A stretch of DNA of 64,000 bases from Rhypophila decipiens. Its lineage: Eukaryota; Ascomycota; Sordariomycetes; Sordariales; Naviculisporaceae. How positions within the stretch are numbered: position 1 is the first letter of the stretch; each line of letters starts with the position of its first letter. The translations under genes and the position numbers were made by a program. Where the stretch lies: assembly GCA_033297075.1 (NCBI GenBank), contig MU858099.1, positions 62,001 to 126,000 of the forward strand, given 5' to 3'. Under the pieces are notes generated by a model that was not told the origin of the DNA, ran no database searches, and worked only from the letters and a program-made list of their open reading frames with translations. Of this stretch, positions 29,927 through 36,972 are shown piece by piece.

Positions 29927-30577
29927 TTAGATGAGAGCAGCGACCATGGCGACAGCGGCCAGGGCGCCAACGGCGTTCTGGGCTGCACCGGCCGTAAAGA
30001 CCGGAGCAGGCGGTGCGGTGCTGGATGGTGGCATTATGGTGCCGTACGAAGGAACCGGCTTGGGAGTAGTAGCCGGAGGAGGAGGAGGAGGAGGAGGCGG
30101 GGGCGGGGCAGACGAAGACACGGCAGGTGGGGGAGGAGGAGGAGGAGGAGGAGGAGGAGACGGCATATAACTTGGGACCGGAGCCGGCGTCTCAACCACC
30201 GGGGGAGGAGGCGGCGGTGGAGGCGGGACGGTGGAGTAAACGGGAGGAGGAGGTGGTGGCGGCGGTAGCGGAGTCTCGGTCACGGGGCACACGGTGGTGC
30301 TCACGGGGATGGTGACTGTCGTGACCACGGTGCTGTGGGCCGGGCACTCGGTGTACACGGGAGCGCAGCTGGTGATGGTCTGGACGCTGGTCGTGTAGAC
30401 AGTGCTGGTCGTCCACTTGGGAGGCCCAGGCGCCCAGGTAGGGAACGGTGGACCTCCCAGCGAGACTGAGGCGCTCGGTGTGAATACGGCGCTGGGGTAG
30501 CCATATTGGGGCGTGGCCGAAGCACCAGCGGCGAGGGCGGTGAGAGTGATGGCTGTGCCCTTCATCTTGGATATCAT
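29927..30577 (-). CDS. Proline-rich GPI-anchored cell-wall protein
   Basis: Intronless, 216 residues. A signal peptide (residues 1-22, ending ASA) and a C-terminal hydrophobic tail preceded by small residues (about 196-216) fit a GPI-anchored wall protein. Residues 56-102 form a Thr/Val-rich block with three cysteines (C71, C78, C97; [13 protein letters not shown] and [10 protein letters not shown]). This block recurs in the chitinase at 60842. The rest contains four polyproline runs of 8-11 residues separated by Val/Thr/Ser/Tyr spacers, coded by GGA/GGC-type repeats on the plus strand. No enzymatic domain is present. Its role is presumably structural or as a spacer in the wall. The start could be M1 or M5. 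The polyproline tracts are prone to length change, so alleles may differ. Confidence 0.82.
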
Positions 30578-32623: not shown

Positions 32624-34131
32624 ATGGCGCAACCGGTTGATGCCGCAACTCGCAAGCGAGTGCTGAAAGTCATATTCATATCCTTGTTGCTGGACCTGGT
32701 ATGCAGACGCCCCCCCGGAGTCTATTGGGATTAAGCTTCTTACTGACAGCGTGTCTCAGATATCCTTCACATTCATTCTCCCGCTGTTCCCGAAGCTCCT
32801 CGAGTTCTATCGCAATGTCGAAGCTCCTCTCGATGCCTCGGCACCTCCGTCCAAGACAATACTTTCGAGCATTCTGGGGTACCTCAACGCATACAAGGCG
32901 GCGTTCGCCCGTCCGATAGACTCGCGATATGACATTGTATTGCTCGGCGGGGCACTAGGGAGCTTGTTCTCGTATGTTGATTCACTGCGGATAACTTGAC
33001 TTGGAACAATCCCACCCTAACCGTCTTCACGTTTCCAGACTTCTCCAGGCAATTGCGTCGCCCGTCATTGGGCACCTGTCTGATCGATATGGCCGCCGTA
33101 CCGCCCTACTTGCCAGCATGGCGGGCAACATACTGTCGGTCCTCCTTTGGGTAGTCGCAGTCGACTTTCGTACCTTTCTGGCGTCGCGCATCGTCGGTGG
33201 TCTGTCCGAGGGCAATGTCCAGCTTGCCACAGCCATTGCGACCGATATATCAGACACCAGTAGCCGTGGATCTACCATGGCGCTGATCGGCGCATGCTTC
33301 TCTATTGCCTTCACCTTCGGGCCCGCGCTGGGCGCTTGGCTCAGTACCATTGCCACTGTAGCTGCTAATCCGTTCGCAACAGCCGCAGCGGTATCGCTGT
33401 TTCTCATTGTTACAGAAACAATCTACCTCTACTTTAGCCTGCCCGAGACGCTGCCGTCGTTGACAAGAACTCCGGCGGCGAACGGCCATGACGACAAGTC
33501 GGTGAAGCCGACGCCGAAGACAGCTCCGGTCCAGAGGACGAACTCGCATTTCCTCCTCAACTTCGTGCACCTCACCTTCCTCCTTTTCTTCTCGGGCATG
33601 GAGTTCTCGCTCCCCTTCATGACGTACGACTTGTTCGGTTACAGCTCTAGCAAGAATGGCAGGCTGCTCGGCTATGTTGGCCTGGTTGCCTCGCTCTTGC
33701 AAGGCGGCGTTACTCGTCGGCTCCCGCCCCTGCTCTCGGTGAGGATTGGAGTATCGGCCTGTCTCGTCGCCTTCATCATCCTCATGCGCGCCTCCACGGT
33801 GTCCGGACTTTACCTGGCTGCCACGTGCTTGGCCGCTACGTCAGCAACGGTCGTTACGGGTCTGAATGCTTTGAGCAGCTTCGAGGCGAATGAGGGTGAG
33901 CGTGGGGGGAAGCTTGGCATCCTCAGGAGCTGGGGTCAGCTAGGAAGAGGCCTTGGCCCGGTGCTCTTTACCAGTGTCTACTGGTGGGCTGGCAGAGAGG
34001 CTGCCTATGGCATGGGCTCTCTCGGCATTGCGTTTGTGGGTCTGTTGGTCTTCTTTGGGGTGAAGACGCCTCCTGGGTCTGTCAAGGTTAGGTCGAAGGC
34101 GCCGGCTGTGGGTGAGAAGAAGGAACTGTAG
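32624..34131 (+). CDS. MFS transporter, MFSD10/TetA-like
   Basis: Major facilitator superfamily efflux-type transporter. Three exons, 32624-32698, 32760-32971 and 33039-34131, give 459 residues and about twelve hydrophobic segments. The cytoplasmic loop 2-3 signature is clear (SPVIGHLSDRYGRRTALL, matching GxLxDRxGRR). After the fourth segment come GGLSEGNVQLATAIATDISD and FGPALGAWLS, the pattern seen in the TetA and MFSD10 branch. A Lys/Thr-rich central loop (PTPKTAPVQRTNSH) and a Lys-rich tail ending KKEL are cytosolic. The substrate is not predictable. The C-terminal KKEL is not in the usual ER-retrieval form. Exon 1 is short but its residues complete the first helix. Confidence 0.88.
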
Positions 34132-34629
34132 TGTATGTACAATGATATATGCTGTGTATAGTGACGTGATATATATTGACTTGCAGTTGGATTCGATCAG
34201 TTTCTGGCGTTGTACATAGAGGAACGAGCAGCTTTTCACACTGTTATACTATCTTGTTTACTTCATCGGTCTTGCAATGGCTGATTATTGTTGATGATGG
34301 GTACTGTATGCTTTGTGACACCAGTCTGCGTGATTCAAGGGCTGACAGAAACAGGCAGCAATCGTTTCTGCTGTAGCTATCCGCCCCAACAAAAACAAGC
34401 AAACATTCGCTGGAAAAGTGTGAGCCGCAGTAGGCACGAAGCTACTCCTTGTTCACAGTCTTAGACCTGGCTGTGTCTTCTCTGTTACCGAGCAGAGATG
34501 GAGACCAAACACCCTCATCAGACGAAAGGGCCCAATGGACCACGGCGCAACTGATGGTAATGGGTGTATAAGCCATCGTTTGGGGCACAATCCTCAACAA
34601 AAAAGGCAAGCGGCATAGTAAATCGCAAC
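34132..34629. other. Intergenic between the MFS gene and the tRNA locus
   Basis: About 500 bp, with no coding or RNA signal seen. Confidence 0.5.
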
Positions 34630-34651
34630 GCAGGGTGGCCGAGCGGTCTAA
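34630..34651 (+). pseudogene. 5' fragment of a tRNA (Leu- or Ser-type D-arm) with a perfect A box
   Basis: The 22 bases GCAGGGTGGCCGAGCGGTCTAA look like the first 22 positions of a class II tRNA, with the A box TGGCCGAGCGG at 34636-34646. No matching anticodon arm, variable arm or complementary 3' acceptor (ACCCTGC) follows. It lies 32 bp upstream of the tRNA-Arg gene. It is probably a truncated relic. Confidence 0.55.
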
Positions 34652-34683
34652 TATGTCACTTGTCTCTTGCCACAAGCAAAGAG

Positions 34684-34816
34684 GCCCTCGTGGAGAAATG
34701 GTAACTCGCCAGACTCCTAATCTGGATATTGCGGTAAGTCCCCTATAATCAAGATACTGCTTTCATTCACAATCCATACTAACAAGAGCAACAGGGTTCG
34801 AGTCCCGTCGGGGGTG
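34684..34816 (+). tRNA. tRNA-Arg(CCU), interrupted in the T-stem by a 61-nt intron-like insertion
   Basis: Removing 34734-34794 leaves a 72-nt cloverleaf. Acceptor: GCCCTCG pairs with CGGGGGT, including two G-U pairs; the discriminator is G. The D-arm is GAG/CTC around AAATGGTAA. The anticodon arm CCAGA/TCTGG holds the loop CTCCTAA, giving anticodon CCU (reads AGG). The variable loop is ATATT and the T-arm is GCGGG/CCCGT around TTCGAGT. Arm lengths equal those of yeast tRNA-Arg(CCU). The insertion splits the 5' strand of the T-stem, just before an intact B box (GGTTCGAGTCC, 34795-34805), not at the usual tRNA intron site 37/38. A T6 and a T8 run follow. The A box (TGGAGAAATGG) has one mismatch. 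It may be a working gene that needs splicing, or a pseudogene. Confidence 0.75.
34734..34794 (+). other. Spliceosomal-type intron inside the tRNA gene
   Basis: The insertion begins GTAAGT, carries a perfect TACTAAC branch box at 34777-34783, and ends CAACAG 11 bases after it. Its length of 61 nt equals that of ordinary introns in this window (55-86 nt). Its exact excision restores the T-stem GCG+GG. Confidence 0.75.
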
Positions 34817-34827
34817 TGGTTTCTATC

Positions 34828-34846
34828 TTTTTTGGCTCTTTTTTTT
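34828..34846 (+). terminator. RNA polymerase III terminator (T6 and T8)
   Basis: Runs of six and eight T at 34828-34833 and 34839-34846 start 11 bases after the tRNA discriminator base, as expected for Pol III termination. Confidence 0.7.
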
Positions 34847-35292
34847 ATTTTCTGTCTTTTTTTTATCCATAGTTATCGTCACTACACTCTTTTATTTCGT
34901 TGTCTATTTCTATGGTTTTGCCCTCTTATTTATTAATCGTGCTGAAATATCTGGAGTTCTTGTTGGTAAGAGTATTGACCCCGATATCCATAGTATGCCG
35001 ACCGGCGTGGAGAACCTTTCCGAAGGTTGGTGGTAAATGAGGCCTCTCCGACCCGAATCTTGGCCCGATGCCGAAATTCTCCACAGATCACCACACTTCC
35101 GGCCGCCGGCCATTTATCGGCATCTTCATCATCTCAAGCGGGAACCTGCCCTTTACTTACTCATGTCACCACATTTCGTGGCAGGCCTGAAGCGTAAAAG
35201 TAAGAAAATCAATATCATCGTGAACACCATCATCGTCGAATCCTAAAGAAGGATTTGTTTTCCTGCCTTGGCTGGCTATTCTCTCTCTCACG
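34847..35292. other. Intergenic, upstream of the amidase
   Basis: About 450 bp, T-rich near the tRNA, then a likely promoter and leader for the amidase. No other feature was seen. Confidence 0.5.
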
Positions 35293-36972
35293 ATGACGCG
35301 CATGACCAGCCCGGGCCATCTTCTAAAATTTATCTTGCTGTTCATCATTTCATACCGAACCTCAACCACATCAGCGTCTCTCTCCGACCAATTTGACCCC
35401 CGAGGCGCAACAATCCCCAGCATCCACCACGCCCTCCTCCTCACCAAACAAGCAACATGTCGCGAAATAGTATCGGCCTTCCTCTCCCGAATAGAAACCC
35501 TGAATCCCTCCATAAACGCCATAATCTCTCTCAACCCGGAAACCCTCACCATCGCAGACCAAATCGACAACAACCAAATCTCAACCGGCAACAACATGAG
35601 TACAACCCAGAAACTGCTTTGCATCCCCGTCCTGCTAAAAGATAACTTTGACGCCATCCCAATGGCAACAACAGGCGGCTCCCTGTCCCTAGCAAACAAT
35701 TATCCCGCAAACGACGCCCCAACAGTACAAGCACTAAAAACCAGCGGCGCTATAATCCTAGGCAAGACGAACCTCCACGAAATGGCCTTGGAAGGGTTGA
35801 CAGTCTCGTCTTTGGGCGGACAGACGATTAATCCGTTCGATTTTACGAGAACACCGGGGGGTTCGAGCGGTGGGAGTGGCGCTGCTGTTGCTGCTGGGTT
35901 TGCGCTGTTGGCTACGGGGACGGATACCATGAACTCGCTGCGGAGTCCGGCTAGTGCGAATGGGTTGTTTAGTTTTCGGCCGAGTAAAGGGTTGATTTTG
36001 AGGGAGGGGGTAATTCCTGTGAGTGAGACGCAGGATGCTGTTGGGGCGATGGCGTGGGATTTGGGGGATTTGAGGGTTGCGTTTGAGGTTATGGCTTCTA
36101 CAGCTGAGGATGGTGCTGCAGAGTTTGATGATGATTCGATGGTGGCTGGGAAGAAGAAATTATCCGAGATGAGGTTTGGTGTCGTGGATGGGTTCTTCAA
36201 CCACACGGCGTCGGGGGAAACTACACCGGTCAACGACCTTATGAAAGGCATGCTAGCGGCACTGGAGAGGTCTGGGGTGGGAATAGTCAACATCACAGAG
36301 GCGGTTTATAACATTGACGACTTGTTGGCTTTGGATGTCCAGATGTACGAGTTCAGGGAGCTACTAGACGAGTATCTCGGCCGACCAAACGTTGAGAATG
36401 GTGAATATCGCCCATCGCATTTTGAGGAGCTCTACGACCCCGAGAAGGAGAGGTTCCTTGTTATACCGCGCCATTACGAGAATATACGCAAGGCGCTGGT
36501 CTCGTCGACGAGAGAGCCCGACTACGCGGATAGGAAACAGAAAATCACGGAGCTGACAAAGACGCTGGAGGATACGTTTCTGAGGAACGACCTAGATGCG
36601 TTGATCTATCCCGAGCAGAAGAATCTTGTGGTCAAGATCGGGTCCGAGTCGCAACACGGTAGGAATGGGATTCTTGCCGCTCTGACTGGGTCCCCGGTCG
36701 TTACCGTGCCAGTGGGATTCTCACCAGCTACGGAGGACGCGCCCCTGGGAGTCCCTGTGGGCATGGAGATTCTCAGTCGGCCGGGAAGTGATATGATGTT
36801 GCTGAAGCTGGCGCAGGATGTTTACGACGAGGTTGGGATTGTCGGGCCTGGGGAGAGGAGAATTCCGGCCTGGGCCGACGTGTTTGTCGAGCCCAAGATT
36901 TATGAGAAGGTGCCTGATATTAGGCCCAATAGGGAGAATATTCCTCTGGAATATCCTCTGAATGTGTTTTGA
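35293..36972 (+). CDS. Secreted amidase-signature hydrolase
   Basis: Amidase-signature enzyme that cleaves a carbon-nitrogen bond; the substrate is unknown. Intronless, 559 residues. A hydrophobic N-terminus (LLKFILLFIISY) suggests a signal peptide, so the enzyme is likely secreted. The Ser-cisSer-Lys triad is visible: K116 in LLKDNFDA, S191/S192 in GGSSGGSG and S215 in GTDTMNSLRSPAS. The usual GTDTGGS reads GTDTMNS here, a variant seen in fungal amidases. The core then continues ANGLFSFRPSKG and RxGVIPVSETQDAVG. Coding-strand base use changes sharply inside the gene: C/A-rich to about 35770, G/T-rich from about 35855. The start at 35293 precedes the signal-like segment; M4 is equally possible. 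Confidence 0.9.
   Translation: MTRMTSPGHLLKFILLFIISYRTSTTSASLSDQFDPRGATIPSIHHALLLTKQATCREIVSAFLSRIETLNPSINAIISLNPETLTIADQIDNNQISTGNNMSTTQKLLCIPVLLKDNFDAIPMATTGGSLSLANNYPANDAPTVQALKTSGAIILGKTNLHEMALEGLTVSSLGGQTINPFDFTRTPGGSSGGSGAAVAAGFALLATGTDTMNSLRSPASANGLFSFRPSKGLILREGVIPVSETQDAVGAMAWDLGDLRVAFEVMASTAEDGAAEFDDDSMVAGKKKLSEMRFGVVDGFFNHTASGETTPVNDLMKGMLAALERSGVGIVNITEAVYNIDDLLALDVQMYEFRELLDEYLGRPNVENGEYRPSHFEELYDPEKERFLVIPRHYENIRKALVSSTREPDYADRKQKITELTKTLEDTFLRNDLDALIYPEQKNLVVKIGSESQHGRNGILAALTGSPVVTVPVGFSPATEDAPLGVPVGMEILSRPGSDMMLLKLAQDVYDEVGIVGPGERRIPAWADVFVEPKIYEKVPDIRPNRENIPLEYPLNVF

Follow-up and report, generated by a model that had tools for sequence, protein, structure and literature searches.

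Can a nuclear tRNA be matured by the spliceosome? Separate machineries excise the introns of tRNAs and those of mRNAs, and a tRNA-Arg(CCU) gene of Rhypophila decipiens, with a T-stem split at site 51/52 by a 61-nt block resembling an mRNA intron, raises the question. The gene occupies 34684–34816 of the window, the whole 64-kb stretch of DNA analysed (G000:C55:62001–126000, from a genome of 45.7 Mb in 408 contigs; features are on the + strand unless marked). It sits in a 1.16-kb gap between an ORF that ends at 34131 and an amidase ORF that starts at 35293. The amidase ORF (35293–36969), the downstream neighbour on the same strand, has 85% identity to a Rhypophila sp. PSN 637 protein and 69% identity to a Naviculisporaceae sp. 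PSN 640 protein. Elsewhere in the window, a 216-aa ORF at 29927–30577 (−) has long proline runs and, by eye, possibly encodes a cell-wall or secreted protein. Our answer for the tRNA gene is a qualified yes: it probably represents a fifth, divergent tRNA with an Arg(CCU) anticodon, whose Pol III pre-tRNA would be spliced by the spliceosome, as U6 would be.

The anatomy of the gene is that of two tRNA exons separated by an mRNA-type intron. Exon 1 (50 nt, 34684–34733) comprises the acceptor 5′ strand, the D-arm, the anticodon arm with the loop CTCCTAA, the variable loop, and T-stem positions 49–51 (GCG). The block that an earlier note on this DNA had described behind GCG, with GTAAGT, TACTAAC, and CAG, is present as claimed. 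Specifically, a 61-nt spliceosomal-type intron (34734–34794) separates tRNA positions 51 and 52, and sequence and motif scan place its 5′ splice site GTAAGT at 34734–34739, its branch site TACTAAC at 34777–34783 (presumed branch A, 34782), and its 3′ splice site CAG at 34792–34794. Exon 2 (22 nt, 34795–34816) comprises the remaining T-arm, the acceptor 3′ strand, and the discriminator G. The Rfam tRNA model matches 34684–34816 with 38.3 bits (gathering score 29), and its alignment places the surplus nucleotides after the variable loop and before the T-stem. No intron is present at 37/38, which places the gene outside the canonical class of tRNA introns.

Removal of exactly 34734–34794 yields the 72-nt cloverleaf that had been predicted. 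ARAGORN calls the product tRNA-Arg(CCT) at all settings tried, and its stems pair at 7/7 (acceptor), 3/4 (D), 5/5 (anticodon), and 5/5 (T) positions, 20/21 in total, with an A-A at D-stem pair 13-22 as the sole mismatch. The arm lengths equal those of two Arg(CCU) genes of the same genome. The CCU-anticodon cloverleaf appears only once the block is removed: ARAGORN finds no tRNA in the 64-kb window, makes no call on the unspliced gene at the default and two intron settings, and at a lowered threshold (-ps80) reports a tRNA-Trp(cca) whose anticodon loop would hold a 59-nt intron, a call that we consider spurious. An ARAGORN call alone carries little weight, because the program is lenient: in a scan of 287 deletions leaving 68–78 nt, each run through ARAGORN, 154 were called tRNA. 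The 114 distinct products include three with a 5/5 T-stem. Four of the deletions run from GT to AG, and three of these were called tRNA; the 61-nt one, running from GTAAGT to the CAACAG that follows TACTAAC, is the only one of the four with a 5/5 T-stem.

The combination of intron signals is rare. A strict model, GTAAGT..TACTAAC..CAG with a length of 45–100 nt, occurs once on both strands of the 64-kb window and in none of 40 dinucleotide shuffles of it, and a looser model occurs 12 times (two of them with a common donor) versus a mean of 3.0 and a maximum of 8 in the shuffles. Excerpts of PMC5832005 give the fungal U2-type motifs as a GTRWGT donor, an RCTRAY branch, and a YAG acceptor; the window intron carries GTAAGT, ACTAAC, and CAG, and ends 11 nt past the branch motif, inside a branch-to-acceptor range of 6–36 nt. 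A whole-genome search for a B box shortly after CTAAC returned 7 places versus 15 for a reversed control pattern, and by eye a tRNA with a T-arm intron fits at the window gene only.

The gene is one of several with its anticodon. The earlier note had held Arg(CCU) to be often single-copy in fungi and this gene, on that ground, perhaps essential, and a search of the genome rules this out: four further Arg(CCU) genes are present (C8, C58, C108, and C139), so the window gene is redundant. Each of the four has a short anticodon-loop insert, read by eye in C58 and located after position 37 in C8 (16 nt), C108 (15 nt), and C139 (14 nt). The window gene thus shares with these canonical 37/38 genes the anticodon and, in the three that were excised (C8, C108, and C139), the mature length of 72 nt, and differs in having no 14–16-nt intron after position 37. 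The C58 and C139 genes were assigned to Arg(CCU) by eye from sequence; ARAGORN labels them '???' (L023, G000 C58) and Gly(acc) (L027, G000 C139), and L012, L021, and L029, which are of Arg(UCU) type, likewise receive other labels. Of 1769 first-look candidates in the genome, the Rfam tRNA scan scored 63, which yielded 62 matches, the window gene being absent among them, so that further such tRNA genes may be missed. From the 62 matches, 28 were fetched with flanks, and on the fetched loci ARAGORN made 64 distinct tRNA calls, 45 with an intron, several of which look misplaced or spurious. ARAGORN looks for introns in the anticodon loop only, and the 64 calls therefore say nothing on other T-arm introns. 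A further tRNA gene (L057, G000 C151) has an anticodon-loop intron of ~20 nt with CTAAC, and is labelled Ala(cgc) by ARAGORN with a body that by eye is unlike Ala.

Comparison of the spliced product with other tRNAs of the genome reveals a body under structural constraint. Aligned without gaps to one Arg(UCU) gene (L012, with its intron cut out), the product agrees at 53 of 72 positions. The 42 stem positions hold 15 of the 19 differences, yet six pairs are compensated on both sides and one is broken. Random mutation sets (20,000 trials for each of three types) break on average 7.6 pairs at random sites, 4.7 at the same sites, and 4.4 at the same sites with transition bias, and at most one broken pair was seen in 0.01%, 1.0%, and 1.5% of sets, respectively, a test that hinges on the choice of L012 as the relative. 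With 15 of 19 differences in stems and one broken pair versus 4.4–7.6 at random, the body has evolved as a tRNA. Two Arg(CCU) genes share 45 and 46 of 72 positions with the window gene (28/30 in loops), ten pairs being compensated and one broken. The pattern points to a long functional history of the body, and does not speak to the time after intron gain.

The nearest relative of the body is less certain. Gapped identities (56 for Arg(UCU), up to 55 for Lys(UUU) genes) favoured descent from Arg(UCU), an idea that became doubtful when a structure-based count then put one Lys(UUU) gene slightly ahead: outside the D-loop, identity is 48/65 to Lys(UUU), 46/65 to Arg(UCU), and 38–39/65 to two Arg(CCU) genes. 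The D-loop has the length of that of the Arg(CCU) genes and L012. Because Lys(UUU) is as similar as Arg(UCU), the origin of the tRNA and its presumed charging with arginine are uncertain.

The intron leaves the candidate Pol III signals of the gene intact. An internal A box, TGGAGAAATGG, is located at 34691–34701 and is one position off what we take to be the consensus. An internal B box, GGTTCGAGTCC, is located at 34795–34805 and starts straight after the intron; it stays whole because the insertion, at 51/52, lies directly 5′ of it. In the tRNA numbering of PMC3978253, the two boxes correspond to positions 8–19 and 52–62. The distance from A box to B box is 93 bp, inside the 31–93 bp of natural genes stated in excerpts of PMC11724288, where box borders may differ from those used here. 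A TTTTTT run at 34828–34833, a likely Pol III terminator, lies 11 nt past the gene end and is the first run of at least four T in 34401–34960, none being present from 34401 up to that point. The absence of T4 from the intron is unremarkable, since six other plausible window introns that were checked also lack it. A T4 run starts 0–11 nt behind the gene in 40 of the 64 other tRNA calls, and none is present within 40 nt in 7 of the 64. The gene would thus, as judged from its sequence, have the A box, B box, and terminator of a Pol III gene.

Introns of the same kind also interrupt some of the U6 snRNA genes here. Rfam gives seven U6 matches above its cut-off, four of which (L081–L084, at G000 C263, C14, C122, and C67) carry inserts of 58, 62, 69, and 63 nt at one common site behind GGTCAAW, with GTARGT, CTAAC, and YAG; the other three (L079, L080, and L085, the last at a contig end) read through that site uninterrupted. 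The 61-nt window intron falls within the 58–69-nt range of the four, and by eye has no likeness to them except in the splice signals. The start of the four U6 introns is conserved (GTARGTWGCGTTKCRCTC), perhaps as an intronic B-box-like element. Two other Pol III RNAs that might carry introns, the SRP RNA (RF01502) and the nuclear RNase P RNA (RF00009), had no match at E up to 10. Tani and Ohshima in 1989 and Canzler et al. in 2016 are said to have reported introns of mRNA type in U6 snRNA genes of fungi, and fungal U6 introns are likewise known from references within the excerpts of PMC5832005 and PMC9518982. From the U6 introns and this literature, it is very likely that R. decipiens already splices one Pol III RNA, U6, by the spliceosome.

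Taken together, the complete splice signals, the exact cloverleaf, the preserved body structure, and the U6 introns argue well for spliceosomal processing of the tRNA, the part of the earlier note's proposal that stands once its single-copy, essential gene is given up. We propose that Pol III would transcribe the gene from the A and B boxes spared by the intron and stop at the T6 run, that the spliceosome would take out a normal U2-type 61-nt intron as a lariat, that loss of the intron would let the T-arm form, and that ordinary end processing would then give a 72-nt tRNA reading AGG. The intron would in this respect work like the four U6 snRNA introns of the genome. Points against this proposal are the redundancy of the gene, the A-A at 13-22, the one deviation in the A box, and the likeness to Lys(UUU).

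A first alternative is a dead gene: a spliceosomal-type intron, or an insertion resembling one, would have entered a redundant tRNA gene so recently that the gene has had no time to decay and still looks intact. The four other Arg(CCU) genes and the one mismatched D-stem pair are compatible with such a history, as are excerpts of PMC4090602, according to which D- or T-arm insertions mostly strike eukaryotic tRNA genes that have many synonymous counterparts and are supposed, as a rule, to mark pseudogenes. The state of the gene argues the other way: the splice signals and 20/21 stem pairs are intact, the body showing little decay, and the point of insertion coincides exactly with the border of the B box, with removal giving a complete product. 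A fresh insertion might also have a source copy, and the other copies of the block that the earlier note had raised did not turn up: a genome search at E up to 10 returned, among the best candidates scored, the query itself only, for the block and for the gene alike. Among those candidates the near-identical copies of an introner-like element are thus absent, and a mobile intron element was rejected as the source. The earlier suggestion that an element had recently inserted and killed the gene is weakened by the lack of a second copy among the candidates scored and by a body with a single mismatch in 21 pairs. We regard death of the gene as unlikely.

A second alternative, also raised before, is a Pol II transcript, either a spliced non-coding RNA or a long 5′ leader, from which the spliceosome would remove the intron and RNase P and RNase Z would then release the tRNA, or in which a tRNA-like fold would have another role. 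The mRNA type of the intron fits such a transcript, as does the 1.16-kb gap preceding the same-strand amidase ORF, and a possible but doubtful TATA element, TATAAG, is located upstream at 34567–34572, 117 bp before the tRNA and 67 bp before a tRNA-Leu-like fragment described below. TATAW occurs at −65 to −20 in only 12 of the 64 other tRNA calls, mostly between −50 and −31. Counting against Pol II are the A and B boxes, the T6 run at a distance usual for tRNA genes here, and the U6 genes, which suggest that intron-bearing Pol III RNAs occur in this fungus. A Pol II origin is in our estimate a doubtful prospect, less probable still than a dead gene.

It is very improbable that the tRNA endonuclease excises the block at a bulge-helix-bulge, as happens in Cyanidioschyzon or archaea. 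Ectopic introns are described for tRNA genes of nucleomorphs and the red alga Cyanidioschyzon merolae, and like the window intron they lie away from 37/38, T-arm included; they differ in being attributed to the endonuclease or an unknown mechanism, with no spliceosomal signals described in the excerpts of PMC4090602 and PMC3978253. The window intron admits a central helix of 4 bp, with zero pairs in the inner helix, and shuffled introns reach such a helix in 32% of cases and an equal total score in 17%. The test separates poorly, because two canonical introns used as controls have 3/4 central pairs and yet a higher total (8 versus 6 for the window intron); it lends the structure no support, and endonuclease excision would leave the splice and branch signals as an unexplained coincidence. 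That a tRNA-like sequence merely resembles an intron-bearing gene by chance, as the redundancy of the gene and the leniency of ARAGORN (154/287) might allow, is scarcely credible given the absence of strict introns from the 40 shuffles and the compensated stem changes relative to Arg genes.

Ribosomal RNA is made by Pol I, and Rogers et al. reportedly described an mRNA-type intron in fungal nuclear 18S rDNA in 1993. In view of that report, as cited in excerpts of PMC11782384, the presence of mRNA-type introns in genes for structural RNAs has a precedent; the rDNA intron resembles the window intron in interrupting a gene for a structural RNA not made by Pol II, and differs in that the host is rRNA. 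Fungal U3 snoRNA offers fungal-type spliceosomal introns in another small structured RNA that is not a tRNA, and in 2017 no small structured RNAs besides U3 and U6 were known to carry introns frequently (PMC5832005, in excerpts). A close parallel is fungal U6, which likewise combines a GT..CTAAC..AG intron of ~60 nt in a short structured Pol III RNA with a mixture of intron-bearing and intronless copies per genome, as seen here for U6 itself; the window gene differs in that the host is a tRNA and the intron splits a stem of its fold. Introns of nuclear tRNA genes are described as archaeal-type in the excerpts of PMC11782384, and, by titles and abstract openings, none of the open-licence literature matches listed reports a nuclear tRNA gene interrupted by a spliceosomal intron.

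On balance we favour a nuclear tRNA matured by the spliceosome, with a Pol III precursor that would acquire its T-arm and fold only after removal of an mRNA-type intron. If so, a spliceosome-dependent tRNA gene would break the divide between the tRNA and mRNA intron machineries and tie an AGG-reading tRNA to spliceosome activity, and newly gained introns could lodge in tRNA genes immediately beyond the promoter boxes, as in U6. The gene would offer a naturally occurring case in which to ask whether Pol III precursors besides U6 can be spliced, and would bear on intron gain where promoters are internal. A further suggestion is that eukaryotic tRNA genes with an insertion in the T-arm be examined for splice signals before they are set down as pseudogenes.

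A further tRNA-derived element precedes the gene. An exact 18-nt copy of a tRNA-Leu 5′ end, with an A box TGGCCGAGCGG at 34636–34646, is located at 34634–34651 and ends 32 bp before the tRNA. The 18 nt are identical in six tRNA-Leu(CAA) genes, five so called by ARAGORN and one labelled Lys, and with at most one mismatch they occur at 27 places in the genome versus 1 for a reversed control. No further Leu sequence follows the copy, and by eye no matching acceptor 3′ strand is present nearby, on which ground we rejected the idea that the Leu-like piece and the Arg part form a single tRNA. Speculatively, the piece may be left over from an adjacent tRNA gene or may serve as an additional promoter element.
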